Source: an uncultured Mycoplasmatota bacterium
GTDB lineage: Bacteria; Bacillota_I; Bacilli_A; Izemoplasmatales; Izemoplasmataceae
NCBI GenBank assembly: GCA_913062645.1
Contig: CAJXVW010000002.1
Coordinates: 427,433 to 491,432, forward strand
Direction: 5' to 3'
Length of the DNA: 64,000 bases
This document shows, piece by piece, positions 32,130-48,358 of the stretch; position 1 is the stretch's first letter; every line of letters starts with the position of its first letter. The position numbers and the translations under genes were made by a program. The notes under the pieces were generated by a model. It worked only from the letters and a program-made list of their open reading frames with translations. It had not been told where the DNA came from and did no database searches.

Positions 32130-32160
32130 AAAGATTGAAAGGACTGACCTTTCAATCTTT
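32130..32160 (-). terminator. Terminator after phoR
   Basis: A 13-bp perfect stem AAAGATTGAAAGG/CCTTTCAATCTTT with a 5-nt loop; it includes the phoR stop codon. Confidence 0.85.
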
Positions 32161-33381
32161 GAGCGGCAAGGTGATGGTGAAGGTGGTGCCTTCGCCGAGT
32201 TTCGATGCGACGTCGATGGACCCGCCGTGTTTGAGAATCGTGTTCTTGCTGATCGACAATCCGAGACCGCTGCCGCCGGTGTCGCGGGACCGGGCACGGT
32301 CGACGCGGTAGAACCGTTTGAAGATCTTTTTGTGGTCCTCCTCGGCAATGCCGATGCCCGTGTCGGCGATGGTCAGGACATAGCGTTTCTTGTCGCGTTG
32401 TCCGATGATTGTAATGGACCCTTCATCGGTATAGCTGATGGCGTTTTTTACCATGTTGATGAGCACTTGAAGAAATTTGTGCTTGTCCAGACTCAATGTT
32501 TCGCTAGCGACGTTGACGTCGATTGTCAGACCGCTGTCCTCAAGCGGTTTACGCAAGATTGACAGACACTCGCTGACAAGTTCCTCGATGTCGACGGAAG
32601 TTCGCTCCAGCTCGTAATCGAGTCGGTCCAGCTGGGCGATCTGCGACAAGTCCTTGAGAATCAATTCCATGCGGTTGGCTTCGTTTTGAATCAGCTCGAT
32701 GAACTCCTGACGCTCTTCGTCCTTCATGTTACCGTTGCGGGCGAGGATCTCGCTGAAGCCCTTGATGGACGACAACGGCGTGCGCAGCTCATGTGAGACA
32801 TCGGCGGTAAAGCGTTTCTGATACTCCTCTGCTGTTTTCAACAACGTGATGTCGTGGACGAGAATCAATGTGCCGCGAAACATATCGTCTTCAAACATCG
32901 GGGTGCTGATGAGATCGAAGTAGCGGGTTTCGTAATGGATTTGATGTCGCAGGATGGTCTCCAAAAGGTACGCTTGGTTGATGAATCCGTGGAGATCCTT
33001 GATTTCTGAGATCTCGTTGTAGTCCAACCCATTGAAATCGCGTCCGAAGTAGGCGTTGATGTCGGAGTTGGCGAACTGGATGATGCCGTCTTCGTCAACC
33101 ATCAACAGTCCACTGCCGAATGACTGGCTGAGAGACAGGAATCGTTCGTAGATTTCTTCTCTTTGTTTGGCGGTCTTTTCCAATCTGGTCTGAAGTTTGG
33201 AGAGACTTGACGTCTTGTCTTCGTGGTACTTCTGACGCAATTGGTTGTACAACATGATGTGAATGGCGGCGAGAACCAGCACGAGAATGACGTTGACAAT
33301 CGGATTGTTCACGAAGACGATATACAAAATGACGATCAGATATCCGATCGCAAACGATACGTAGTCTCGATTCCACTTCAT
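32152..33381 (-). CDS. phoR: Phosphate-sensing histidine kinase PhoR
   Basis: A 409-residue membrane kinase. It has two close N-terminal membrane segments (about 9-26 and 28-45) with almost no extracytoplasmic loop, a coiled stretch, a PAS domain (about 85-190), the HisKA motif VSHELRTPLSSIKGF with the phospho-His (about 207), and an ATPase domain with the N, G1 and G2 boxes (NMVKNAISYT, ADTGIGI and GGSGLGLSI). The lack of an outer sensing domain and its place behind phoU support sensing through the Pst-PhoU complex. A TATAAT element near the end of phoU (about 33409-33414) may add local transcription. Its partner phoP lies on the other side of the pst genes. Confidence 0.9.
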   Translation of the reverse strand: MKWNRDYVSFAIGYLIVILYIVFVNNPIVNVILVLVLAAIHIMLYNQLRQKYHEDKTSSLSKLQTRLEKTAKQREEIYERFLSLSQSFGSGLLMVDEDGIIQFANSDINAYFGRDFNGLDYNEISEIKDLHGFINQAYLLETILRHQIHYETRYFDLISTPMFEDDMFRGTLILVHDITLLKTAEEYQKRFTADVSHELRTPLSSIKGFSEILARNGNMKDEERQEFIELIQNEANRMELILKDLSQIAQLDRLDYELERTSVDIEELVSECLSILRKPLEDSGLTIDVNVASETLSLDKHKFLQVLINMVKNAISYTDEGSITIIGQRDKKRYVLTIADTGIGIAEEDHKKIFKRFYRVDRARSRDTGGSGLGLSISKNTILKHGGSIDVASKLGEGTTFTITLPLKD

Positions 33382-33417: not shown

Positions 33418-34074
33418 TCAATCGAGTTCGATGCGTTTCCCATTTACAAGATAAACGATATTTTCTGCGATATTGACGACGTGGTCGCCGGCGCGTTCGA
33501 TCTGTTTGACGATCAAGACGGCGCGCATCGCCTCTTCCACCGCTGCCTCGTCGGCGGTTTTGGCAAGTTTGATCCATTCGCGGATGTAGGAGCGGTACTT
33601 GTTGTCCATGACTTCGTCCGATTCACTGACGTCCAAAGCGAGTTGAACGTCTTCGTTGGCAAACGACGTCATGATCTTATCTAGCATGTCGAGCAACAAT
33701 GTCGCCAACTCGATGATGGCCTTGAGGAATGGCTCGTTGTTGTTTTTGGTTTTGATGATGTAACGGGCGACATTGACGGCGTAATCACCGATGCGCTCCA
33801 GTTCATTGGAAATCTTGAGCACCGATATGGTGCGGCGCAGGTCACTGGCGACGGGGCACTGACGGGCGATCAGGAGATAGGCGTCGACGTTGATGGAAAT
33901 TTCGAGTTCGTTGATCAGTTTGTCCTGTTCGACGATGGCTTGCGCCAGTTCGAGGCTCTGAGATTCACAGGCGACGATGAGTTTGCGGAAACTGTCGTGG
34001 ACCTGGCGGCCCATTTCGATGGCTTTGTGATTCAATTCGTTGAGTTCATCGATGAAGTGTTTGCGGTTGGTCAT
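33418..34074 (-). CDS. phoU: Phosphate transport regulator PhoU
   Basis: A 218-residue protein with two three-helix PhoU repeats. Both carry the metal-binding E-x-x-R/A-I-G/A-D pattern (ELERIGDYAVN about 90-100 and QIERAGDHVVNI about 192-203). It couples the Pst transporter to the PhoR kinase. It starts 11 nt after pstB in the same operon, with AGGAGG as ribosome site. Confidence 0.95.
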   Translation of the reverse strand: MTNRKHFIDELNELNHKAIEMGRQVHDSFRKLIVACESQSLELAQAIVEQDKLINELEISINVDAYLLIARQCPVASDLRRTISVLKISNELERIGDYAVNVARYIIKTKNNNEPFLKAIIELATLLLDMLDKIMTSFANEDVQLALDVSESDEVMDNKYRSYIREWIKLAKTADEAAVEEAMRAVLIVKQIERAGDHVVNIAENIVYLVNGKRIELD

Positions 34075-34085
34075 GAGGAACCTCC

Positions 34086-34844
34086 TTACCCGAAGCGACC
34101 GGTAATGTAATCTTCGGTCTGTTTGAATTTCGGTTGTGTAAATATTTTATCAGTCTGATCAAACTCAATCAAGTCTCCCATCAAGAAAAATGCGGTGTAA
34201 TCGGAAATGCGGGCGGCTTGTTGCATCGAGTGGGTGACGATGACGATCGTGTAGTTTTCTTTGAGATCGTTGATCAGTTCTTCGATCTTGAGCGTGGCGA
34301 TCGGGTCGAGCGCACTGGTGGGTTCGTCCATCAGGATGACTTCCGGCTCCATGGCGATCGCTCGGGCGATGCACAGCCGTTGTTGCTGACCGCCGGACAG
34401 ACCCATTGCGCTGTCTTTGAGGCGATCCTTGACTTCCTCCCAGAGCGCGGCGTTCTTGAGCGAGGTTTCAACGATTTCGTCGAGTTTGCTCTTGTCCTTG
34501 AGACCTTGACAGCGAGGACCATATGCGACGTTGTCATAAATCGTCATCGGAAACGGATTGGGTTTTTGGAAGACCATACCGACCTTGGTGCGCAAGTTGA
34601 TGACGTCATGTCCTTTTTCGTAAACATTGTCCCCATGATACTCGACTTCGCCGTCGATCTTGCAGATGTCGATCAGGTCGTTCATGCGGTTGAGACATCG
34701 CAAGAACGTCGATTTACCGCAGCCGGACGGACCGATCAGGGCCGTCACCTTGTTCTTTTCGATGGTGAGGTTGATGTCTTTCAAGGCTTGGAAACTACCG
34801 TAGAAGAGATCGAGGTTCTTGATGTTGAATACGTTATTCTTCAT
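34086..34844 (-). CDS. pstB: Phosphate ABC transporter ATP-binding protein
   Basis: A 252-residue ABC ATPase. It has Walker [10 protein letters not shown] (about 34-42), the Q-loop VFQKPNPFP typical of PstB, signature LSGGQQQR, Walker [13 protein letters not shown] and the H-loop VTHSMQQA. The second ATG (34844) is chosen because it lies 7 nt from AAAGGAG; the first ATG is only 1 nt away. It energises PstCA for phosphate import. Confidence 0.97.
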
Positions 34845-34856
34845 ATTCATACTCCT

Positions 34857-36059
34857 TTACTGAAATCGCTTCGTGAAGCGACGAGATATGAGTTTGACGG
34901 TGATGTTAAGAATCAACACGATGATCAGGATGATGATGGCGATGGTACTGGCGAGTTCGATGTTGGCCGGTTCATCGGTCATCAGACTCCAGATGTGGAC
35001 GGCCAGTGTCGTAGATTTGCCGAAGATGGAAATGTCATCCTTGACGGCCGTTCCGATGGCGAAAATCAGGGCTGCGCTTTCCCCAATGATGCGACCGATG
35101 GCGAGCAACGTGGCGGTGAGAATGCCGGGCAACGCGGATGGCAACACGACCTTGAATGTCGTCTGCGTCTTGTTTGCGCCGAGGGCAAGCGAAGCGAAGC
35201 GGAAGTCATCGGGTACGACTTTGAGCGATTCCTCGGTAGCGCGGATGACAACCGGAAGTAAGATGACGGCAAGCGTCAGACTACCTGAGACCAAGTTGGC
35301 GCTGTCGGCGCTGGTATATCGCACCGTCAAGGGCACGAACACGGCGAGACCCATCAGACCGAAGATGATCGACGGGACCCCGGTTAACACTTCAATCATG
35401 CTGCGCAGGGTGTTTGTGACCCGATTCACCTTGGCGAACTCATTGAGATAAATTGCGGTGAAGATTCCAATCGGAAGTGCGAACACAAGTGTCATGCCAA
35501 TGACATAGAGCGTTGTGACAATCGACCCGCGAATCCCGCCGCCGAGCGAAGAGAAGACAATCTCGCGGAACTCGTTTTCGGTGTCCAGCTCGTTGATCAT
35601 GTGCTCGGCGCCTTGAACGGCGAGTGCCGAGTTCTTGTCGTAGAACTTGATCGATTCCACGACATTCCCGCGGATGATGGCAAAGTCCTCGTTGACGTCA
35701 TTGTTCTTGTCGAACATGTCGTGTAGCGGGGAATCGGGCGCGACATAATCGACAACAATGATCGTTTTCCCCTCGCGGTCGATGTCTTCGCTGAAGGCGA
35801 CGCCCCAACGTTCGGAATAATAGGACTCGTCTCCCAACGATGCCGGACGATCGGTCGTGGAAAACTCCGTCACCGGATCAATGCCGCCGTTGTAGAACTG
35901 GGCGTGATAATCATTGACAACAAGACCCCAGTTCAGCAGTCCCGATCCGTTGCTGAAGACATAGATGAAAATCATCGACAAGACGATGACGGAGATCGAA
36001 GATGCAATGTAGGTGATTGCCTGGTAGATGAAATCGACTCGCTTGCGTTTATTTGACAT
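34857..36059 (-). CDS. pstA: Phosphate ABC permease PstA with large extracytoplasmic insert
   Basis: A 400-residue permease, about 100-120 residues longer than usual. Membrane segment 1 (about 12-38) is followed by an extra soluble region (about 42-165) and then by the regular PstA core with five more segments and the coupling-helix block LGANKTQTTFKVVLPSALPGI (EAA motif). The extra domain contains IIVVDYVAPDSPL...IIRGNVVESI, which resembles the ligand-groove and carboxylate-loop spacing of PDZ domains. It should lie outside the membrane, near the PstS docking surface. It overlaps pstC by 11 nt. The function of the insert is unknown. Confidence 0.92.
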   Translation of the reverse strand: MSNKRKRVDFIYQAITYIASSISVIVLSMIFIYVFSNGSGLLNWGLVVNDYHAQFYNGGIDPVTEFSTTDRPASLGDESYYSERWGVAFSEDIDREGKTIIVVDYVAPDSPLHDMFDKNNDVNEDFAIIRGNVVESIKFYDKNSALAVQGAEHMINELDTENEFREIVFSSLGGGIRGSIVTTLYVIGMTLVFALPIGIFTAIYLNEFAKVNRVTNTLRSMIEVLTGVPSIIFGLMGLAVFVPLTVRYTSADSANLVSGSLTLAVILLPVVIRATEESLKVVPDDFRFASLALGANKTQTTFKVVLPSALPGILTATLLAIGRIIGESAALIFAIGTAVKDDISIFGKSTTLAVHIWSLMTDEPANIELASTIAIIILIIVLILNITVKLISRRFTKRFQ

Positions 36060-37023
36060 CGACGTTCCCCACCTTTCTCTTGATGAAGTTCAGCGTCATG
36101 TTGGTAATGAGGATGACAATCATCAACACGATCCCGACCGAGAAGCGAATGTCATAGTCGATCCCGATGGTTTCTTTCAGTCCCTGCAACATCGTCGAGG
36201 TGAGGGTCGAAGTGGTCTGGAAAAAGCCGAGCGACGGTCCGCTGCGGGCATTTCCGGCGACCAGACTGACGGCGGTGGCCTCGCCGAGTGCCCGTCCTAC
36301 ACCGAGAATGGCGGCCGTGAAGATTCCGGATTTGGCGCTTGTCAAGACAACTTTGAAGTTGGTCTGAGTGCGCGTCGCACCAAGTGCCAAGGACCCATGT
36401 TCAATGTCTTTCCCGACACTGCGGATGGCGACCTCGCTCAATGCGGTGATGGTCGGTAGAATCATCAGCGACAATACAAGCACGGTGGCAAGCACCGAGT
36501 TCCCGCCTTTTGACTGAACGCCGAACAACTTTGCAAAATTGTAAACGAACACAATGATCAGACCGCTACCGAACAGACCATAGACGATCGACGGAATGGC
36601 GGCCAGCAGCTCGACGACGGTACGAAGCACTTCGGCGATGCGTTTGGGTGCGATTTTGGCGATGAATAGTGCCGTCAAGACACCAATCGGCATCGACAAG
36701 AGCAACGACAAAAACGCGATGTAAAGCGTATTGACGATGATGAATCCGACGGCGTAGAGGTTGGATTGGAAGGCGGTTCCTTCCAACCAAGTCGTTCCCG
36801 TCAGGAACCGGACAAGATCGACACGACCGAGCCCATCGTTGTCGGTGACAAACGGAATCATGCCTTCCAAAGCGATGAAGAAGACAATGACGATGATGAA
36901 CGACGCGGACAGGACGGTGGCGAGCAGGAAGAATCCGCGCACCACCGCGTCTGTCCGTTCTTTTTTGCTATTGAAGTGAAACGCGTCTTTCAGTTTGTCT
37001 TTCAGGTTTTTGATGTATTCCAT
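36049..37023 (-). CDS. pstC: Phosphate ABC permease PstC
   Basis: A 324-residue permease with six membrane segments. The N-terminal segment (about 30-52) and a periplasmic loop with FLTGTTW match PstC, and the cytoplasmic EAA coupling block LGATRTQTNFKVVLTSAKSGI is present (about 212-232). It forms the channel with PstA. The start at 37023 has GAGGACATCGC upstream. A hairpin between pstS and pstC (37051-37071) probably lowers its expression relative to pstS. Confidence 0.95.
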   Translation of the reverse strand: MEYIKNLKDKLKDAFHFNSKKERTDAVVRGFFLLATVLSASFIIVIVFFIALEGMIPFVTDNDGLGRVDLVRFLTGTTWLEGTAFQSNLYAVGFIIVNTLYIAFLSLLLSMPIGVLTALFIAKIAPKRIAEVLRTVVELLAAIPSIVYGLFGSGLIIVFVYNFAKLFGVQSKGGNSVLATVLVLSLMILPTITALSEVAIRSVGKDIEHGSLALGATRTQTNFKVVLTSAKSGIFTAAILGVGRALGEATAVSLVAGNARSGPSLGFFQTTSTLTSTMLQGLKETIGIDYDIRFSVGIVLMIVILITNMTLNFIKRKVGNVDVK

Positions 37024-37050: not shown

Positions 37051-37071
37051 AGCCCCCGTTAACGCAGGGCT
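37051..37071 (-). terminator. Partial terminator between pstS and pstC
   Basis: On the minus strand the stem AGCCC/GGGCT, with the inner palindrome CGTTAACG, is followed by TTTTCTT. It lies within the 80-nt gap after pstS and is placed to let only part of the transcripts continue into pstCAB. Confidence 0.7.
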
Positions 37072-37103: not shown

Positions 37104-38030
37104 TCAGTCTAGCAGTTCGTCCCAAGTGGTGTACTCGCCGGAGTAGATTTTCTTGAGGTCTTCTGCGGTGACGTTCGATACTTCGTTGTCGAGGTGGACG
37201 ATGGCAACGATGGCGTCCCAAGCGAGTTGGCCCTGAGTGCCAGTCTCGCCAGCTTCCTCCGCTTTGAACGGGCGCGAAGCGAAGCCGATGTGCTTGTAGT
37301 TGTCGCCGTCTTTTTCCGAACCCTGGGTCCGTTTGAAGCCGTCGGAAGAACCGGTGTGGTCGTGCTCCGGCACGAAGTCGCCGCATTTGGGCGCGAATTC
37401 TTCGGTGAGGGCTTTGGCGATTTTTTCGATCGAGTCGGATCCGCCGAACTTGATCGTCACGGCACTGTTGTCCTGTTCACAGACGGGATAGTCGGCTTTG
37501 ATGTCATCCCAGGTTTCGGTACTTTCCAAGGGAACGGCGCCTTGGTTGGTGATGATGTCGGCGCCATCGGTCGTTGCCATGAAGGCGACGAAGGCCATGC
37601 TGATGTCTTTTTCGGTATCGTTCGCGTAGTCATCCATGGCGCGGGTGACATAGTTGAACGGGCGTTTCAGACCATAGGTGTCATTGATGACGTTGGCGAC
37701 GGTGGGTTCCACGCCATCGAAGAACAGTCCTTTGACGGTTTCATCCAGAGTGGCGAGGGAGATGTAGCCGATACCATATTCATCGGTCTTCATCGAGGTG
37801 AAGATACCGGTGTTGTCCTTGATGACAAATCCATCGACGAGCAGGCTGTCGTCTTCGGCGGCGTCATCGAAGTCGATGCCGCCCATGAATCCGGCGCGGG
37901 TTCCGCTCGATGTGTCGCGGGTGTATACGGTAATGGTGCTGGAAGCGTCCCAACCTTCTTCGGTTGATCCGCATGCTGACAGTCCAAATACTGCAAGTGC
38001 ACTGAGTGCAAGTAACGCTAATTTTTTCAT
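37104..38030 (-). CDS. pstS: Phosphate-binding lipoprotein, circularly permuted PstS
   Basis: A 308-residue lipoprotein (LSAC, lipid Cys20) at the head of pstCAB-phoU. The two halves of the PstS sequence are in swapped order. Residues 32-168 hold what is normally the second half: YTRDTSSGTRAGF (36-48, phosphate-binding), YGIGYISLATLD (85-96), DGVEPTVANV (105-114) and FVAFM...ITNQGAVPL. Residues 189-308 hold what is normally the first half: FGGSDSIEKIAKAL (195-208, normally the N-terminal phosphate loop), HIGFASRPF, DAIVAIVHLDNEVSN and EDLKKIYSGEYTTW at the very end. In ordinary PstS this last block directly precedes the SGTR block. Both phosphate-binding loops are kept, so binding should be preserved. 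The ribosome site is GGAGG. Confidence 0.88.
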   Translation of the reverse strand: MKKLALLALSALAVFGLSACGSTEEGWDASSTITVYTRDTSSGTRAGFMGGIDFDDAAEDDSLLVDGFVIKDNTGIFTSMKTDEYGIGYISLATLDETVKGLFFDGVEPTVANVINDTYGLKRPFNYVTRAMDDYANDTEKDISMAFVAFMATTDGADIITNQGAVPLESTETWDDIKADYPVCEQDNSAVTIKFGGSDSIEKIAKALTEEFAPKCGDFVPEHDHTGSSDGFKRTQGSEKDGDNYKHIGFASRPFKAEEAGETGTQGQLAWDAIVAIVHLDNEVSNVTAEDLKKIYSGEYTTWDELLD

Positions 38031-38067: not shown

Positions 38068-38121
38068 ATTATACGGTAGCAAGATTAATTTGCGATATGA
38101 TGGTTGTTAATGTTTTGTAAA
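38068..38121 (-). promoter_or_regulatory. pst promoter with Pho box
   Basis: On the minus strand: TTTACA, 5 nt, TTAACA, 5 nt, CATATC (38116-38121, 38105-38110, 38094-38099), an 11-nt periodic array like the PhoP-binding boxes of Bacillota, placed about 20 nt upstream of the -10 element TATAAT (38068-38073). There is no -35 hexamer, as expected for an activated promoter. Confidence 0.75.
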
Positions 38122-38149: not shown

Positions 38150-38173
38150 AGACGAGTTCATAATGACTCGTCT
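38150..38173 (-). terminator. Terminator of phoP
   Basis: An 8-bp stem AGACGAGT/ACTCGTCT with an 8-nt loop and a T-rich run on the minus strand. Confidence 0.75.
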
Positions 38174-38837
38174 AGATGAGTTTGTAGCCAACGCCGCGAA
38201 CGGTCTTGATGTAGTCGTTTGCGGGATCGAGTTTTTCACGGAGTTTGAAGATGTGGACATCGACAACCCGCGAATCGCCGTCATAACTGAACCCCCAGAG
38301 ATTGGTAAGCAGCTGATCGCGACTGAGAGCCTTTCCTTTGTTGATGATTAGGTACACCAACAGTTCGAACTCCTTGAGCGTAAGTTCGATCTTCTCGGTG
38401 CCTTTCCATACTTCATACGAACTTTGCACAACGGTGAAGTCCTCGTAATGCAGCACATCGTCATCCTGATTGGCGCCTTGACGACGCAACCCGGCCTTGA
38501 TGCGAGCGGTGAGTTCACGCGGACTGAACGGTTTCGTGACGTAGTCGTCGGCACCCGCTTCGAATCCCTGGATGATATTGTATTCGTCGTCCACTGCAGT
38601 CAACATGATGATGTAGGCGTTGTTTCCTTCTTTGCGAAGTTTACGACAGATTTCCATACCGTTCATGTTGGGCAACATCAGGTCCAATAAGATCACATCG
38701 TAGATCGACGTTGAGGCCTTCTTGTATCCTTCGAACCCGTCCGCAGCGGACAGGACGTCATGTCCGAGTTGCTTGAGATCGTACTCGATCATCCGTTGAA
38801 TCGATTTTTCGTCTTCGATGATCAGAATTTTGGCCAT
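38172..38837 (-). CDS. phoP: Response regulator PhoP (OmpR family)
   Basis: A 221-residue OmpR/PhoB-type regulator. The receiver domain has the acidic pair EDE (about 8-10), the phospho-Asp in VILLDLMLP (about 52) and KPFSPREL with the conserved Lys. The winged-helix DNA-binding domain has LTLKEFELLVYL and RVVDVHIFKLREKL. The ATG at 38837 is chosen for GGAGGTGATC upstream. It should be phosphorylated by PhoR at low phosphate and bind the box upstream of pstS. Confidence 0.92.
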   Translation of the reverse strand: MAKILIIEDEKSIQRMIEYDLKQLGHDVLSAADGFEGYKKASTSIYDVILLDLMLPNMNGMEICRKLRKEGNNAYIIMLTAVDDEYNIIQGFEAGADDYVTKPFSPRELTARIKAGLRRQGANQDDDVLHYEDFTVVQSSYEVWKGTEKIELTLKEFELLVYLIINKGKALSRDQLLTNLWGFSYDGDSRVVDVHIFKLREKLDPANDYIKTVRGVGYKLI

Positions 38838-38921
38838 GGCGATCACCTCCAAATCCATCATATCACAAATGTAATTGCGTTGTTAACGTGAAATGAAAAC
38901 TTAACAGGATGTAATTGTTTC

Positions 38922-40628
38922 TTAATATTCGGTGAGATGTTCGTCCGAGTCGTACTCGAGTTCGTCGTTGTAGTAGTTGTCCTGAAGTACGTTGATGGCG
39001 ATGTTGGAACAATGGTCGCCGATGCGTTCGACGTTGGACAGAATGTCGACGTAAAGATGATCCTGCGTTTCCGTCGAGGCTTTGTTGTTGATGCGCATGA
39101 TGTGGCGTTTGCGATTCTTGATGACGAGACGGTCGATGATTTCCTCGCGATCAAGAACACGTCTGGCGAGGTCCTTGTCCCATTTCTGGAACGCTTCCAG
39201 GGCGTAGGCGAAGGTTTCGGTGACAACGTCATAGAGCTTCGTCAATTCTTTCTGAGCGTCTTCGCTGAAACAGATTTTGGTTTCATGACGTTCTTGGAAG
39301 AACTGGAACAAGTTGGTGCAGTGGTCGCCGATCCGCTCGAAATCGCGGATGGTATCGACGAACTTGGCTTGATCACTGGATGCGCGATGCGGCAAGTCGG
39401 ACTCAGAGATACGTACCAGATAGTCGTGTGCCTTCTTGTCGATGGTGTCGATCATCTCTTCCATCTGCATGCCGTTTTCGAAATGGCGCTTGTTGTCTTC
39501 AAACGAATATTGGACGGCCGTATCCCACATCTGTTTGGTGATGTGGCCCATGTTGATGAGCACATGTTTGGCGTTTTCCAGGGCGAGAACCGGTGCTTCG
39601 GTAATCAGTTTCTCTTCGAGCGCATCCATTTCGATTTCAATCAGACCATCGTCACCACGGACAATGAACTTCACCATCCACACCAGTTGTTTGATGAACC
39701 AGTAGAATATGAAGGTGTTGATGATGTTAAAGCCCATGTGTGCGAAGGATATCGTCATTTCCGGGTTGTTCTCATGCAGGACATTGAGTTCCAGATAGCG
39801 TATGATTGTATAATACGGACGGAGCAACAACATGAACAGCAGGCTGCCGATGACATTGAACAAAACATGAGCGGCAGCTGTCCGTTTGGCCGCAACGCTG
39901 CCGCCGATGGCGGCGAGCACGGCGGTGATCGTCGTTCCGATGTTGTTGCCGAACAAGATGGCGATGGCGCCGATCAGCGGAATCGCTCCCGTACTATACA
40001 GTTCCTGAAGAATCCCGATGGTAGCGGAACTGGATTGTACCAAAACGGTGGTTCCAGCTCCCACGAACATGCCGAGGATGGGGTGTTCCGCCACGTTTTC
40101 AAACGCCTGAACGACGATGTTCAGTTCGGCCAGTTCTTTCAACGCACTGCCCATTATGTCCAGGCCAAAGAACAACATGCCGAACCCTAGAAAAACGCCG
40201 CCCAGTTGTTTGTACTTCTTACGATGCATGAAGAACACCAAGAAGGCCCCGGCGGCGATGATGGGGAGTGCATATTCCTTGATCTTCAGACCGATTAGAA
40301 ACGATGTGATGGTGGTTCCGATGTTGGCGCCGAGAATGATCCCGATCGCCTGGGGCAAGGTCATCAGCCCGGCACGAACCAGTCCGACGGTGAGTGCCGT
40401 CGTTCCGGATGACGACTGAATCAGGCCGGTGATGATGATCCCGACAAAGATTCCTTTGATCGGTGTGTTCGTTGATTTCTCAATGACGAGTTTCAGCTTG
40501 TTGCCGGCCAACGCCTTGAGTGAATCTCCCATCAGATTGATGCCATAGAGGAATATCCCCAGACCGCCTACTACAGCGAATATCGTGACTTGCCAGTTGA
40601 TGTCCGCAACATCTGCGAGTAAGAACAT
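38922..40628 (-). CDS. Na+/phosphate cotransporter with C-terminal PhoU domain
   Basis: A 568-residue protein of the NptA/PNaS family. The membrane part (about 1-310) has two inverted repeats with the QSSSGTTALTVG (about 69-80) and QSSSATIGI (about 180) motifs that bind phosphate and Na+. The C-terminal cytoplasmic part (about 340-560) is a PhoU-like helical domain with FERIGDHCTN and VERIGDHCSN. It gives a low-affinity phosphate route beside Pst. The ribosome site is AGGAGGG. It is encoded just upstream of phoP. Confidence 0.93.
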   Translation of the reverse strand: MFLLADVADINWQVTIFAVVGGLGIFLYGINLMGDSLKALAGNKLKLVIEKSTNTPIKGIFVGIIITGLIQSSSGTTALTVGLVRAGLMTLPQAIGIILGANIGTTITSFLIGLKIKEYALPIIAAGAFLVFFMHRKKYKQLGGVFLGFGMLFFGLDIMGSALKELAELNIVVQAFENVAEHPILGMFVGAGTTVLVQSSSATIGILQELYSTGAIPLIGAIAILFGNNIGTTITAVLAAIGGSVAAKRTAAAHVLFNVIGSLLFMLLLRPYYTIIRYLELNVLHENNPEMTISFAHMGFNIINTFIFYWFIKQLVWMVKFIVRGDDGLIEIEMDALEEKLITEAPVLALENAKHVLINMGHITKQMWDTAVQYSFEDNKRHFENGMQMEEMIDTIDKKAHDYLVRISESDLPHRASSDQAKFVDTIRDFERIGDHCTNLFQFFQERHETKICFSEDAQKELTKLYDVVTETFAYALEAFQKWDKDLARRVLDREEIIDRLVIKNRKRHIMRINNKASTETQDHLYVDILSNVERIGDHCSNIAINVLQDNYYNDELEYDSDEHLTEY

Positions 40629-40718: not shown

Positions 40719-40735
40719 TTAACATTTTCTTAACA
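40719..40735 (+). promoter_or_regulatory. Pho-box-like direct repeat upstream of the Na/Pi cotransporter
   Basis: TTAACA, 5 nt, TTAACA on the plus strand, about 90 nt upstream of the cotransporter start. The spacing is identical to that of the pst box, but the orientation is opposite to the gene, so PhoP might act here as a repressor or from the other strand. The rest of this 128-bp gap is AT-rich without a clear promoter. Confidence 0.5.
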
Positions 40736-40748
40736 TTACAACCAAAGA

Positions 40749-40775
40749 AAAGAAGGATCACAACGATCCTTCTTT
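40749..40775 (-). terminator. Terminator of the DHH phosphoesterase pair
   Basis: An 11-bp stem AAAGAAGGATC/GATCCTTCTTT with a 5-nt loop. Confidence 0.75.
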
Positions 40776-41723
40776 GAATTGTTTGGCCAGTTCGTCGGCA
40801 TCCTCAATCAGTAGTTTGGTTCGTTTCCACGTTCCAAGGCTCGCTCCGCTGGCCATTTTATGGCCACCGCCGTCGTACTTGTTGGCAAGCAGATCGATGC
40901 GCGGTCCCTTCGACCGCATGCGACAGCGGACAATCCCTTCCTCGTACTCTGCGAACAGCAACCAGATCGGATATTCTTCGAAGACGCCCAGTTCGTTGAC
41001 AAGCGACGACGCTTCTTCGAGCGACACGCTGAACTTCTTAAGATGGCGAGGTTTGATCTTGAAATAGACGACACCGTTCTTGGTTTTCTTATAGTGTTGA
41101 AGAAGATACCCCTTGAAGCGCGTCAACTCCTCGGTTCGTTGATCGAGATGCGCATGGATCTCCTTTTTCTCCAGGCCGATGTCAAACAACGTCGCAACGC
41201 TGCGGAAGGTATCGCCGTCCACCCCGTCATACTTGAATCGTCCCGTATCGGTGAGAATTCCGAAATAGAGGGCCTTTGCTCCATCTTTTGACATCTTGAG
41301 TTTGTCCTGATTGACAAGAAAGAGATCGAGGATGATCAGGGCCGCCGCGGGGCGCCCGGTGTCGACATAAGCGATGTCGCCATATTGTTGGACATCGACA
41401 TGATGATCGATTTTGATCAGAAAATCAGCCTGGTCGAACCGCTGATCGGCAAGTCGGTCCTTGTTCGCGGTATCCACGGCGATGGCCAACGCGCCTTTGA
41501 AGGCATCGTCATCGAGTTCCTCGGGAATTCCGATGAACGATGTGAAATCACTGCTTTCACCGACGACATGAACGGTCTTGTTCGGCCAGGTAGTAACAAT
41601 GATGTCCTTGAGTCCGAACGAGGTGCCGATGGCGTCACCGTCAGGACGGCGGTGTGGAATGATGATGATCTTGTCGTACGATTCGATTTTGGTGTAGATC
41701 TGTTTCAATTTGGTCTTGTTCAT
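40758..41723 (-). CDS. DHH/DHHA1 phosphoesterase (NrnA-like), second copy
   Basis: A 321-residue phosphoesterase. The DHH domain has HRRPDGDAIG (about 23-32), the Asp in AVDTANKDR and IDHHVD (about 106-111); the DHHA1 domain ends in GGGHKMASG. Stand-alone DHH-DHHA1 proteins of this type (NrnA family) degrade very short oligonucleotides, and some hydrolyse pApA or pAp. The start overlaps the stop of the upstream paralogue by 4 nt (ATGA). All metal-ligand motifs look intact. Confidence 0.88.
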   Translation of the reverse strand: MNKTKLKQIYTKIESYDKIIIIPHRRPDGDAIGTSFGLKDIIVTTWPNKTVHVVGESSDFTSFIGIPEELDDDAFKGALAIAVDTANKDRLADQRFDQADFLIKIDHHVDVQQYGDIAYVDTGRPAAALIILDLFLVNQDKLKMSKDGAKALYFGILTDTGRFKYDGVDGDTFRSVATLFDIGLEKKEIHAHLDQRTEELTRFKGYLLQHYKKTKNGVVYFKIKPRHLKKFSVSLEEASSLVNELGVFEEYPIWLLFAEYEEGIVRCRMRSKGPRIDLLANKYDGGGHKMASGASLGTWKRTKLLIEDADELAKQFKEGSL

Positions 41724-42658
41724 GTGGTTGATCCTTTCGCAAAGTCATCCAGTTCCTGAAGCAACTGCTTGGCCTCATCAAAGCTGTACAGCGTACAACC
41801 GCAGGCGAGGGCGTGTCCGCCACCGCCGTATTTGCGCGCCAGGTGGACAATCGATTCCTTGGCACTGCGCAGTTCGACGAGGATTTCACCATTATCATCT
41901 TCGGTGAAATTGGCCCAGATGTGGATGTCACGCAGTCCGCTCATCTGATTCACCATCGCCCGCGACACGATGAAGGTAGTTACGTCGAAGGCTTCTTTGA
42001 CGTGTTTGTCGTTCATCATGTAGGCGACGTTGTGAGGTGTGACTTTGAAGTTGTTTATGAAGTAACCGCGGAGTTTCTTGAAGTTGAGGTCCTCGGTGTA
42101 TAGATTGTCATAAATCCACTGTAGGCGACCGCCTTGTTGAAGCAAGTATGCGGCAATTTCAAACGAACGCGAGGTGGTGAAGGGATACAGGAACCGGCCG
42201 CTATCAGTCACCAGACCGGTGAGAAACCGTGTCGCGGCAATCTCATCAAAGGCATAATTCTGTTCCATGAAAACACTGACGATCAGCTCCGCGCACGCGA
42301 TGTGGTTCGATTCAATGATTGCGATGCAGTCGAAATCGGGTTGATTGAGATGATGATCGATGACCAGGACTTGGTCGGCCCGGAGGTACCGGTCGTCGCT
42401 GATCAGTCGCGTTACACAGACATCGACGACAATCGCCAGGGCACCCTCATAATACGCGTCGGGAATGTCATCCATTTCACCCAAAAAACGGAAGTTGTTG
42501 ACGTCGCCAACAGCGTAGACTTCCTTGTCCGGGTGATTGAGTTCCAACAGCCGTTTGAGACCCAGTTGCGAGCCGTAAGCATCGCCGTCGGGATTGGTGT
42601 GACGGTGGATGATGATGCGATCGTATTGATCGATGAGCGGTTTGATCTGATCGAACAT
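41720..42658 (-). CDS. DHH/DHHA1 phosphoesterase (NrnA-like), first copy
   Basis: A 312-residue paralogue of the following gene with the same layout: HRHTNPDGDAYG (about 20-31), VDVCVTRLISDDR, IDHHLN (about 102-107) and a closing GGGGHALACG. It shares the length and all catalytic motifs, so it looks like an old tandem duplication that has diverged in the substrate-binding parts. The ATG at 42658 is chosen because GGGGG lies upstream; an earlier in-frame ATG has none. Confidence 0.88.
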   Translation of the reverse strand: MFDQIKPLIDQYDRIIIHRHTNPDGDAYGSQLGLKRLLELNHPDKEVYAVGDVNNFRFLGEMDDIPDAYYEGALAIVVDVCVTRLISDDRYLRADQVLVIDHHLNQPDFDCIAIIESNHIACAELIVSVFMEQNYAFDEIAATRFLTGLVTDSGRFLYPFTTSRSFEIAAYLLQQGGRLQWIYDNLYTEDLNFKKLRGYFINNFKVTPHNVAYMMNDKHVKEAFDVTTFIVSRAMVNQMSGLRDIHIWANFTEDDNGEILVELRSAKESIVHLARKYGGGGHALACGCTLYSFDEAKQLLQELDDFAKGSTT

Positions 42659-42683
42659 GAGAGACCCCCTGAAATAACAGTTC

Positions 42684-42692
42684 ATTATACCA
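42684..42692 (-). promoter_or_regulatory. Extended -10 promoter of the DHH pair
   Basis: TG-G-TATAAT on the minus strand about 25 nt before the start; no good -35. Confidence 0.5.
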
Positions 42693-43996: not shown

Positions 43997-45245
43997 TTAA
44001 GTGGCTGGCGTCGTAACCGTGATGTCGCCAATGTCGGTAATCGAGAATCTCCAGATTTTCGAGACATCGGTATACGTGCCATTGGTTCCATAGAACACGG
44101 CTGTGAAAGTCACGGTGTCGCCTGCGGTGAGACCAAGCGAAGTCAGATCGACGGATTCATTTACAACGATACCCATGCGGTTGTCGCCACCATTGGTGCC
44201 GTCGCTGCTATAGAAGTAGATGTAGTAGCTGCCGACTTCGATGATGGTCACATCGGTGAAGGTATAGGTTTTTCCGTAGTCTGTATCAACCGCTGCGGTG
44301 CGCAGAGTTGAGCCGTCGCCGGCATCAACCACAACACCCGAAAGCGCGTTGCCGCTGGAAATGACTTCGACGCGAGAGACGTTGTCAATGAGCGGTACGC
44401 CGTAGAATCCACGTTGGCCAGTGACGCGTACGAGATCGCCGACGGCGACAGATACGCTTGCCCAGTCCGCATAATCGGTGCTGTAATCGTCAACGTAGAT
44501 GGCCGTTCCGTCAGCATCTTCAATGATGAATGTGCCGTTGGATTGAACCCATTTGACGGTGCCTTCGATGAAGAGATTGTCATCGGACGCGGCAGCTTGT
44601 GCGGCTGCGACATTTGACGGTGCCGCTTCAACGGTGATGTCAGCGAGATCGGTAATGGCGAAACGCAGGATCTTCGTCTCATCGGTGTAGGTTCCGCTGG
44701 CGCTGTACAGAAGTGCGTCGAACGATACGATGTCGCCAGCTTCCAGAGCAAGCGATGTCAGATCGACGGAGTAGTCGACGACGATGCCCATGCGGTTGGT
44801 GCCACCAGTTGTACGGTCATCACTGTAGAAATAGATGTAATAGGATTGTACCGAGATGATTTCAACATTGTTGAAACTGTAGTAGACGCCGAATCCGGTG
44901 TCATCCAATTCGGTGCGCAACAGTGCGGGATCCGGAACTGGAATCAACGTAGCGGAGAGCGCGTTGCCGTTGGTGAGAACTTCGACTGCGCTGACGGTGT
45001 CAACGAGCGGGATGCGATAGAATCCTTTGGCGCCGGTGACTTTGACTTTGTCGCCTACGGCCAGGGTCAGGTCGCCCCAGGTAATGGTTGCCGAGTAATC
45101 ATCAACATAGACCGCGGTGCCATCGGCATCTTCCATGAAGAAGGTTCCATCGTCGAAGATGTAAGTAATGATACCTTCGGCCTCGACCGGATCATCCGTT
45201 GCGAGAGCAAGAACTTCTGCGACGGTTTGTGAACTGGAAGGTTCA
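43997..45245 (-). repeat. Two-copy tandem duplication inside the giant lipoprotein gene
   Basis: Two segments of about 620 bp each (43997-44620 and 44621-45245, boundaries approximate) encode the same pair of OB-like modules. Both contain the DNADGTAIYVDDYS-like, RGFYG/RIPL and SYYIYFYSxDxTxGGxNRMGIVV series. They are diverged at DNA level, so this is an older duplication. Confidence 0.7.
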
Positions 45246-48200
45246 GCAGGAACCGTTACGGTGAACGGTACGTCAACCGGGGTTTCAGTGCCGATTGTGA
45301 GCGTGGCGGTGAGTGTTACTTCCGCATCTGCTTCACCACTGGCAGGACGGGTGACGGTTCCATCGGTGCCGATGACAGTGGCATCACTGGTTGCCCAGGT
45401 GATTGCTACGCCATACATTTCGGTCGGCAGCGTGATGTTGTCGACATACGATGCTTCGAGAGACAGTTCGTCTTGTGCTACGAGCAGCGCTTGAGCGTCT
45501 GTCAACTCAGGAAGTTGGACGTTGTCGAGGCGGACATCATCGTAGTTGATGTCGAACACGGTGAACGTTAGGGTGATGGTGTCGCCCACATTGTAGAGTA
45601 CGTCTGCGTACGGGAAGTCGCCACCATAGATTTTGATCATTGTCGTTCCGTCGCCATCGAACAGAATATAGCCGAATCCATCGTCAAGCGCATTGAACGT
45701 CAAGGTCATTTCGAACGTTTGTGAACTATAGGTTCCGATCGTTGCCAGCACACCAAGGGTGGCGGCGTCGACATCGGTACGAACGAATACGTCATTGTCA
45801 CTCGAGGTGGTGCTGAGCACGACAACATCGTTGAGTTCACGTTGGTTGTTATTGTAGGACGTGTAGGTGTTGAGCGTGCCGACAACGACAATCAGGTCGC
45901 CGATTGCGACATCGTCTTCCAGATCTTCAGTATCAAGGAAGATCGCGGTGCCGTCGGCATTGTCTTGCAGGAATGCTTCGCCTTTGTAGTTGAAGCCTGC
46001 TACGACGCCGGTAACAACGACAACATCGCCGTCGGTTCCGGCAAGTGCATCAGCAACGCTGACCGGAGTCAGGGTCGAACCGTCGATGACATGAACGACA
46101 AAGTCTCTGGTTACGGTCGTGCCGTTGACATCAACGGTCGCCGTGAGCGTAGCCATGGTAGCTTGGGTATAGTCGATCGTGACGGTACCATCCGCCGCGA
46201 CGACTGCTGCATCGCTGGTTTCCCAGGTGATGGTTGCGGCCGGGTCGGTGAAGGTGGCCGGAAGTGTCAAGTCGCTTGCGACGTTTTCCAGCGTGCCAAG
46301 GTCGATGACATCCGCAACGGCTTGTGCTTTTTCAAGATCCGTGAATCCATCGGCGTCGGCCACGACTTCTGCTTCGGTTCCCCAATACAGGACGCGTCCG
46401 TTACCATACGGATATACGACGATGGTGACATCGGTATCTTCCGATGTGAAGAGAGCCTCGTCGTTGGAGCGATAATAGACTTCGACTTTGCCGCCGGCTG
46501 CACCGGTGATGAAGACGTTGTCATAACTTCCTTCACGGGTTACGTGTGCAGAAACGGTGACAGGTTGTCCGTCTTGATAGAGTCTGCTTTGCAAGCCTTC
46601 GACGGTACCATTGATGGCGGTCGGAAGCGCATTGCTGGCATCGGTGATGGTGTGCTCGATGATGTTCGCCTGCAACAGGCCGTTGTATTCGCCGAGCCAA
46701 CCGAGAATGTTGATGTCGTCGCCAGGTTCGAGATCGTCAAACAATCCGTCTTCATAAACGAAGATGTTGTCCGTGCCGTCCCAGATGAAGAAGCCATAAT
46801 AGCTTTCCAGGGTTACGGTACCGTTGATTTCGAAGTAACTGCCGGTGGGCAGGGCGAGAACTTCGCCAATGGTGCTGACAACCGGTACGACGACTTCGAT
46901 GGTCGCGGTATCGGTCAGGCTGCCTTTGGTAGCCGTGGCGGTGAAGGTAACCGTAACGGTTTCCGTACCACGAGCGACAAAGGTTCCATCATTATCGAAT
47001 ACTGCTGTGTTATCGCTGGCCCAGCTTGAATAGGTCGTTCCATTCGGGCCTTCGGTGGGAAGCGTGATTGTAGCGATTGCAACATCCGGAACATCGGCGC
47101 CGACAACTGCGAGGTCCGCAGCCAGTGCGTCTTCGTCCGACAGCGTTGCCACTTCGATGTCGTCTGCTCCGCCTTGGAAGGCAAGCATGACACCGTTGGT
47201 GCCGTGATCGGTGTAGTAGATGACGTCGATTGTGACGGTCAGGCCGATATTCGCTTCAAGCGCATCCAACGATGCTTCGAGCGAATAATAATAGATCAGG
47301 ACTGCGTCATCGCCGTCTACGAGATAGAGGTTGCTGAAGTCGCCGCGTACTTCGACGGTACCGGTGATGGTGTAAATCTTACCATGAATCAGCGGATCGC
47401 TCGAGTCAAGGGCAAGGATGTCGGCAACCGAACTTGCGATCGGAGTCAGCGGCTGCATGCCGTCACCGGTGGCGGTGATGGTTTCAGTCTGGACGCTGCC
47501 AATCTGGAAGAGCGTGTTGTACTTGGCGTATTCGCCTTTGACGTAGACGGTGTCGCCCAGGGCCGGAGTGATTTCCGAGCTCGGATTGTACACGCCGAGA
47601 ACGTTCGTTCCATCGGTCAGGAAGTAGCCGCCGTCGAACAGACCGGAGACTTCACCTTCGAATTCAACGATGTCGCCGAGGGTGCTGGCTTCGATGAGCG
47701 CGGCAACGGTGGCGAAAGTGTTCGAAGGATCTTCTTCTTTGACAATGATGTCAATGTCCTTCGTGCCGGTTTCGTCGTTGAGCGTGACCGTCGCCGTAAG
47801 GGTGACAGCAGCGTTGCCTTCGCCGTTTTCGGGACGCGTGACGGTTCCGTCGTTGGCGACCACGTCAGTGTTGCTGGACGACCAGGTGATGGCCGTGCCG
47901 TTGGCACCACTGCTGGGCAACGTGATGTTGCCGGTAACCAATCCGGTAACCGGAAGCACCAATGCGGCAACCGCTTGTGCAACGAGTTCGGCGTCGGTGT
48001 ACTCGGTTGCGGCGAGCACGGTGACGGTGAAGGATTTCGTCAACTGCTGTTCATCCAGCGACAGGGTCGCCGTCAGCGTGACGGTCTGATTGCCCTCGGT
48101 TTTGGTCGGAATGGTGACCGTTCCGTCGTTGGCGATGAAGTCGGTGTTACTGGATTCCCAGGTGACTTCGACGTCATGGACGGCGGTGTTGGGCAATGTC

Positions 48201-48358
48201 AGGTCGGTACTGGTTTCGCTTGGTACTTGGAGTTCGTCCATCGCTTCGGTGATCTGGTCCAAGATCTCCTCGACGGTCGGTCCGGTATCGGGATTACACG
48301 CAGTGAGCGTGAGTGCTCCGATGGCTACCAAGCCTAAAGCTAGTAGTTTCTTAAACAT
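43997..48358 (-). CDS. Giant surface lipoprotein of Ig-like and OB-fold repeats
   Basis: A 1453-residue lipoprotein (LTAC, lipid Cys21). About five atrophied-Ig-type domains (pattern ITW.SSN..V..NDGTVTRP, starting near residues 33, 116, 400, 690 and 960) alternate with about ten OB-fold-like modules (pattern V.VTG.V......FL.DG...I..Y......GD.V.V.G). The last four OB-like modules form a tandem duplication (DNA 43997-44620 and 44621-45245), both with EDADGTAVYVDDYS-type and SYYIYFYS blocks. No nuclease or other catalytic motif is visible. It lies directly downstream of a nuclease lipoprotein with the same Ig and OB types, so it is probably a nucleic-acid- or polymer-binding scaffold. The ribosome site is AAGGAGGAAA. 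Confidence 0.8.
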   Translation of the reverse strand: MFKKLLALGLVAIGALTLTACNPDTGPTVEEILDQITEAMDELQVPSETSTDLTLPNTAVHDVEVTWESSNTDFIANDGTVTIPTKTEGNQTVTLTATLSLDEQQLTKSFTVTVLAATEYTDAELVAQAVAALVLPVTGLVTGNITLPSSGANGTAITWSSSNTDVVANDGTVTRPENGEGNAAVTLTATVTLNDETGTKDIDIIVKEEDPSNTFATVAALIEASTLGDIVEFEGEVSGLFDGGYFLTDGTNVLGVYNPSSEITPALGDTVYVKGEYAKYNTLFQIGSVQTETITATGDGMQPLTPIASSVADILALDSSDPLIHGKIYTITGTVEVRGDFSNLYLVDGDDAVLIYYYSLEASLDALEANIGLTVTIDVIYYTDHGTNGVMLAFQGGADDIEVATLSDEDALAADLAVVGADVPDVAIATITLPTEGPNGTTYSSWASDNTAVFDNDGTFVARGTETVTVTFTATATKGSLTDTATIEVVVPVVSTIGEVLALPTGSYFEINGTVTLESYYGFFIWDGTDNIFVYEDGLFDDLEPGDDINILGWLGEYNGLLQANIIEHTITDASNALPTAINGTVEGLQSRLYQDGQPVTVSAHVTREGSYDNVFITGAAGGKVEVYYRSNDEALFTSEDTDVTIVVYPYGNGRVLYWGTEAEVVADADGFTDLEKAQAVADVIDLGTLENVASDLTLPATFTDPAATITWETSDAAVVAADGTVTIDYTQATMATLTATVDVNGTTVTRDFVVHVIDGSTLTPVSVADALAGTDGDVVVVTGVVAGFNYKGEAFLQDNADGTAIFLDTEDLEDDVAIGDLIVVVGTLNTYTSYNNNQRELNDVVVLSTTSSDNDVFVRTDVDAATLGVLATIGTYSSQTFEMTLTFNALDDGFGYILFDGDGTTMIKIYGGDFPYADVLYNVGDTITLTFTVFDINYDDVRLDNVQLPELTDAQALLVAQDELSLEASYVDNITLPTEMYGVAITWATSDATVIGTDGTVTRPASGEADAEVTLTATLTIGTETPVDVPFTVTVPAEPSSSQTVAEVLALATDDPVEAEGIITYIFDDGTFFMEDADGTAVYVDDYSATITWGDLTLAVGDKVKVTGAKGFYRIPLVDTVSAVEVLTNGNALSATLIPVPDPALLRTELDDTGFGVYYSFNNVEIISVQSYYIYFYSDDRTTGGTNRMGIVVDYSVDLTSLALEAGDIVSFDALLYSASGTYTDETKILRFAITDLADITVEAAPSNVAAAQAAASDDNLFIEGTVKWVQSNGTFIIEDADGTAIYVDDYSTDYADWASVSVAVGDLVRVTGQRGFYGVPLIDNVSRVEVISSGNALSGVVVDAGDGSTLRTAAVDTDYGKTYTFTDVTIIEVGSYYIYFYSSDGTNGGDNRMGIVVNESVDLTSLGLTAGDTVTFTAVFYGTNGTYTDVSKIWRFSITDIGDITVTTPAT

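Follow-up and report, generated by a model that had tools for sequence, protein, structure and literature searches.

The pstS gene of the window (the 64,000-nucleotide stretch of DNA analysed here) very probably encodes a naturally circularly permuted phosphate-binding lipoprotein that belongs to a PhoP/PnpR-controlled Pst importer. Profile and chain comparisons together with a structure model support the reading of its product as a circularly permuted, probably working PstS. The open reading frame, whose coordinates in Table 1 include the stop codon, yields 308 residues from the ATG at position 38030; an alternative in-frame ATG located upstream, at 38069, would give a protein of 321 residues.

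Table 1. The permuted pstS gene, its segments and the neighbouring pst operon (positions in the window; residues numbered from the ATG at 38030)
Feature	Position	Strand	Basis
Permuted PstS lipoprotein gene	37104-38030	-	Profile matches, half-profile order test, model, structure alignment
Signal peptide and lipobox, residues 1-20 (LSAC, Cys20)	37971-38030	-	Sequence; Cys20 conserved to ≥90% among 86 relatives
Residues 31-170, counterpart of the second half of ordinary PstS	37521-37940	-	phmmer to 4q8r 118-243 and 4gd5 151-275; half-profile order test
SGTR phosphate loop, residues 42-45	37896-37907	-	Among 86 permuted relatives, S42, G43, R45 invariant and T44 conserved to ≥90%
Linker from former C-terminus to former N-terminus, about residues 171-190	37461-37520	-	Half-profile order test; linker survey
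Residues 191-306, counterpart of the first half of ordinary PstS	37113-37460	-	phmmer to 4q8r 5-113 and 4gd5 35-146; half-profile order test
GGSDS phosphate loop, residues 196-200	37431-37445	-	Among 86 permuted relatives, G197, S198 invariant and S200 conserved to ≥90%
ASR motif, residues 251-253	37272-37280	-	Among 86 permuted relatives, S252 invariant and R253 conserved to ≥90%
pstC	36049-37023	-	TIGR02138, 3e-68, over cut-off
pstA, with extra segment of ~110 residues before the permease core	34857-36059	-	TIGR00974, 9.8e-71, over cut-off
pstB	34086-34850	-	TIGR00972, 1.1e-129
phoU	33418-34074	-	TIGR02135, 1.7e-58
PnpS/PhoR-like histidine kinase	32152-33381	-	NF046044 PnpS, 2.6e-93, below curated cut-off
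PhoB/PnpR-like response regulator, upstream	38172-38861	-	TIGR02154 PhoB, 2e-63, below curated cut-off
Na/Pi symporter with PhoU domain, upstream of the regulator	38922-40628	-	
PhoP/PnpR-type Pho box TTTACA-N5-TTAACA (TTTACAAAACATTAACA)	38105-38121	-	Pattern search, window and genome
Terminator-like hairpin between pstS and pstC	37054-37069	-	Possible attenuator; number found close to chance

Following the lipobox cysteine (Cys20), the N-terminal part of the protein contains, in this order, ITVYTRDTSSGTR (residues 33–45), GIGYISLATLD, DGVEPTVANV and GAVPL, and the part placed after the linker runs through FGGSDS (195–200), GFASR (249–253) and KKIYSGEYTTWDELLD to the stop. The profile PF12849 matches the protein in two stretches, the C-terminal one corresponding to the start of the profile (residues 189–305 to positions 7–125 of 267), and the same picture is seen with TIGR02136 (residues 183–306 to positions 31–155 of 295). 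The blocks are likewise exchanged in the phmmer alignments with two ordinary PstS chains: residues 192–306 align with positions 5–113 of 4q8r and residues 31–166 with 118–243, and in 4gd5 residues 189–306 align with 35–146 and residues 31–165 with 151–275. The i-Evalues of these blocks (1.6e-10 to 2.1e-10 for 4q8r, 1.7e-11 to 2.3e-11 for 4gd5) are far beyond chance, and the two blocks jointly span nearly the whole mature protein. The preliminary description had proposed that the second half precedes the first, and this is borne out by the exchanged matches to both profiles and to both chains; the order of halves that characterizes the ordinary family is not present. Membership of PF12849 is clear (E 1.5e-18, 68 bits against a cut-off of 27), but the score for TIGR02136 (E 1.8e-32, 112.7 bits) falls below the curated cut-off of 206.6. 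Both phosphate-binding loops, SGTR and GGSDS, have survived, as had also been claimed; these and the ASR motif are conserved in the 86 relatives, and of 128 permuted open reading frames 125 have SGTR and 127 have GSxS. A PF12849 search of the 1.99 Mb genome (99.68% complete) returned this gene as the sole match, and no second PstS of ordinary order.

The AlphaFold2 model, for which the 86 permuted relatives served as input alignment, consists of one compact two-lobed unit (pLDDT 94.1, pTM 0.84) and not of two separate domains. Such a prediction had been proposed as a check, and the model matches 4H1X from end to end: this entry is the top match in VIA-align (Z 30.0, rmsd 2.1 Å, 252 of 257 residues in order, 29% identity), Foldseek concurs (E 4.8e-24) and phmmer aligns both proteins in a single linear stretch (residues 28–306 to 6–264). 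The protein has thus the features of a permuted PstS of the 4H1X type, with the second half first in one polypeptide and one linear alignment to that chain. Ordinary PstS structures are matched by the model over only one block of ~132 residues (Z 10–11). Two other readings had been named beforehand. That the halves represent unrelated domains is ruled out by the single-unit model, its pLDDT of 94.1 and the 4H1X match; that a domain is duplicated is ruled out by the two-block exchanged match and the single-unit model, and a linear alignment in normal order with a duplicated domain does not exist. An in-order match of 222–223 residues was obtained with OpuAC (2b4l and 2b4m; VIA-align Z 9.1–9.7), and this match suggests that the permuted chain keeps the general topology of type II receptors with the lobe roles exchanged, the exchange having been read off secondary structure and alignments. 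A weak match was also seen with the Synechocystis structure 9l8j, whose title contains 'evolutionary hots...'; a literature search found no paper for this entry.

The gene is located at the head of a complete pst operon behind a Pho box, in agreement with the preliminary description: pstC, pstA, pstB and phoU, identified by their profiles, follow downstream, and in the permuted relatives pstC also lies directly 3' of the permuted pstS. The pattern TTWACA-N5-TTWACA occurs 2 times in the window (0.02 expected by chance), and these are the only 2 matches in the whole 1.99 Mb genome, in which a control pattern gave 0; one is placed at the pst operon and the other beside the Na/Pi symporter. This second box (TTAACATTTTCTTAACA, 40719–40735, plus strand) lies 91 bp upstream of the symporter-PhoU gene in opposite orientation. 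A Pho box that lies upstream of pst1-phoU1 in Streptococcus pneumoniae is bound by PnpR~P, and the operon has pnpRS as its neighbour (PMC4913102).

In PstA the extra segment comes after the first membrane segment and before the core of the permease. The core starts at residue 165–192 in 49 of 49 complete PstA proteins of the window's permuted clade, at ~45–82 (one at 113) in ordinary operons and at 47–77 in the Clostridia-type permuted ones, fused PstCA aside; the insert could face PstS. The window also contains a secreted lipoprotein-like open reading frame of 1453 aa with many repeated domains (43997–48358, minus strand) and two adjoining paralogous DHH/bifunctional-oligoribonuclease-like genes of 321 aa each (40758–42685, minus strand), their family being read from sequence.

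The chain of an ordinary PstS goes from the start of lobe 1 through lobe 2 to the end of lobe 1. In the permuted protein the linker bridges the old ends, and the opening that makes the new ends falls after the KIYSGxxTTW helix and before the ITVYTR strand, within a formerly continuous lobe. As a consequence the lobes would exchange roles, the one that held both ends becoming continuous and the lipid anchor shifting to the other. The Venus-flytrap fold with its two-lobed cleft is retained, as are all three phosphate motifs, and the protein should therefore close around phosphate and supply PstCA in the usual way. In this scenario phosphate would be caught between the lobes by SGTR, GGSDS and ASR and then handed to PstCA, and we infer that the window PstS binds phosphate and serves its transport. 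The linker between the profile ends measures 7–22 residues (median 15) in 129 permuted open reading frames, and the loop joining the two halves of ordinary PstS 4–7 residues.

A search for the same order in related genomes, also proposed in advance, was successful. Among 198 genomes surveyed in the class, 87 gave a match, and the orders tallied from the match rows were colinear, that is permuted, in 68, two-block (ordinary) in 16 and unclear in 3. The half-profile order test split the fetched open reading frames cleanly into CN (permuted) and NC (ordinary) chains. Permuted PstS was seen in Candidatus Izimaplasma (the closest named relative, 84% over 259 columns), Acholeplasma oculi, Paracholeplasma vituli, Fenollaria, Kallipyga and Helcococcus, in MAGs of Lachnospiraceae and Christensenellaceae, and the order occurs in Clostridia and Treponema. 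In Treponema saccharophilum and Monoglobus the operon is plasmid-borne and its PstS is annotated merely as 'substrate-binding domain-containing protein'. A contig search found no relative in viral contigs; near-full-length permuted matches do occur in four phage records (MT838145, MT837530, MT837962 and MT838544), short unannotated faecal 'Bacteriophage sp.' entries that are probably bacterial DNA filed as phage. Full-length PF12849 matches in ordinary order found in relatives were not taken for PstS, since they adjoin permeases that match only weakly (~1e-9 to 1e-13 to PstC), unlike pst operons; we infer these to be tungstate-type receptors.

Several proteins contain more than one unit. Two permuted units (CNCN) are joined in single open reading frames at L043, L044, L047/L150 and L059, three (CNCNCN) in the 905 aa of L170 (2999–5716, plus strand, followed by a PstC-like open reading frame and one of PstA size), and two ordinary units (NCNC) in the archaeal L109; L112 reads NCN and is cut by the contig end. 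In a Methanophagales locus (L139:3557–4714, plus strand) an ordinary PstS is followed at its end by a partial repeat of the first half, apparently a tandem duplicate cut short. The copies inside one tandem protein are mutual closest relatives, or nearly so, in FastTree, and the duplications are therefore taken as recent and repeated. The model of L044, based on an alignment of only five sequences, reached a pLDDT of 79.4; its first unit (29–306) matches 4H1X (Z 22.9), which indicates permuted units and no inner ordinary one, and the best NCBIfam stretch in this protein, an inner one of ordinary order, is misleading. A third topology is seen in L114 (3528–4397, plus strand), a single MAG sequence from Clostridia encoding 289 residues with a lipobox: the N-half from profile position 30 is followed by the C-half, a linker and, at the C-terminal end, N-half positions 3–26, so that the first beta-alpha unit of the N-half is placed at the C-terminus. 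No second example was found in the other sequences searched. The simplest route between the orders would be in-frame tandem duplication followed by trimming, from NC through NCNC to CN and back through CNCN. This route is plausible, with NCNC and CNCN fusions surviving, none of them demonstrably on a branch where the order switched.

The history of the order was followed in trees for which permuted chains had been put back into ordinary order before alignment; an unpruned FastTree served for orientation only, because long branches came together in it. PstS chain order appears, from these trees, to have changed more than once. Re-ordered PstS needs 3–4 changes, and a single clade of all permuted PstS is rejected each time: p was 1e-4 for the set of 31 rows, 0.0019 for that of 50 rows, 9e-5 for the N-half taken separately and 0.0175 for the C-half. 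PstC, itself not permuted, provides an independent marker: 4 changes are forced by its tree, which also rejects one permuted clade (p 1.8e-4, L114 being scored as ordinary). Two permuted clades appear in this tree, one that includes the window and another (100/96) that holds two exceptions, L073 and L114. L073 has an ordinary PstS, both halves of which find their best matches in the permuted L107, L108 and L110, and these four loci are the only ones with a fused PstC-PstA permease. The fused protein (590–600 aa; L073:2232–4001 and L107:4858–6660, both plus strand) matches TIGR02138 and TIGR00974 and is 48% identical between L073 and L107, the operons of which are orthologous.

A single ancient permutation, the scatter in the trees being due to long branches, to whole pst operons moving horizontally or to replacement of pstS, is an unlikely account of this distribution. 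The main permuted groups do share one break point (a W-xx-L end and an I-x-V-x-x-R start), and on PstS the window, f14 and Clostridia/Treponema clades held together as one are not rejected (p 0.17), which leaves the number of origins uncertain from PstS alone. Against it stand the rejections by re-ordered PstS, by each half and by PstC, the different break point of L114, and the ordinary L073, which groups with L107/L108 in both half-trees (100/99 and 99/97) and has the same rare fused permease as they do, so that at least one later switch of order is needed. On balance we consider it fairly probable that PstS went from ordinary to permuted order at least twice independently, returned at least once (L073) and in one case was permuted again at a new break point (L114), by way of in-frame tandem fusions that survive today (NCNC, CNCN, CNCNCN). 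These same half-trees also bear on the idea that no single gene was permuted and that the two halves, derived from separate PstS genes, were brought together by fusion or recombination. The raw material would be at hand, as tandem pstS genes are common (ordinary in L072 and L079, permuted in L068), but the N-half and C-half trees agree, the window clade being recovered in both (100/98 and 100/100) and L073 with L107 likewise, and such a hybrid origin is improbable.

It is more improbable still that the protein is a receptor of the same fold that no longer binds phosphate and acts as a sensor or takes another oxyanion. The NCBIfam score below the curated cut-off and the generic name that the records give to such proteins would fit this; a low profile score is, however, the expected effect of a changed chain order, the phosphate motifs are conserved or invariant, and this sole PstS of the genome heads a full pst operon behind a Pho box. 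The preferred reading remains that of a permuted phosphate receptor.

Permuted PstS is already known as a structure (4H1X) and is widespread, without a published description that we could find: neither the PDB title of 4H1X nor the literature found mentions permutation, and a literature search covering few subscription papers yielded none linking PstS or 4H1X with it. The earlier remark that no described permuted PstS was known stands insofar as no text was found that calls PstS permuted, but the rarity that it implied does not hold: the structure has existed since 2012 and the order is common. What is new is that the order seems, on comparison of sequences, to have changed repeatedly. Across much of the Bacilli/Mollicutes neighbourhood, and in some of the Clostridia, PstS is normally permuted, and Pst systems look incomplete there because profiles score the permuted protein below cut-off and records name it generically. 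If the repeated switching is true, PstS would be a natural test case for circular permutation of proteins, in which ordinary, permuted, tandem-fused and re-permuted forms coexist today, and also for the question whether an ABC importer is affected by which receptor lobe is tethered to the membrane.

The closest known system is 4H1X itself (S. pneumoniae SP_2084, 'phosphate-binding protein PstS 2', released 2012), which has the same chain order as the window PstS and is only ~29% identical to it. S. pneumoniae has a second PstS of ordinary order (4EXL/4LAT), whereas the window genome relies on the permuted one alone. SP_2084 directly follows pnpRS, and 4H1X would then presumably be the receptor of the pst1-phoU1 operon despite its PDB name. 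Ordinary PstS (PF12849, TIGR02136; 4GD5 and 4Q8R from Clostridium perfringens, 1TWY from Vibrio) is homologous in both halves and shares the phosphate motifs and the operon role, but its halves stand in the opposite order and its ends, hence the lipid anchor, are located elsewhere; bound phosphate is seen only in ordinary relatives such as 4gd5. Circular permutation of two-lobed receptors was detected by CPSARST among the type II proteins OpuAC (2B4L), ProX, molybdate-binding proteins and CysB (PMC2395249); that set has different ligands and less than 24% identity, while in PstS both orders fall within one family whose homology can still be read from the sequences. TpMglB-2 (Tp0684) of Treponema pallidum, a circularly permuted 'Type Ic' binding lipoprotein that binds its ligand and changes conformation (PMC4990184), is like the window PstS a natural permuted lipoprotein of an ABC importer, and differs in its type I fold, its sugar ligand and its break point, the strand order of the N-lobe alone being affected.
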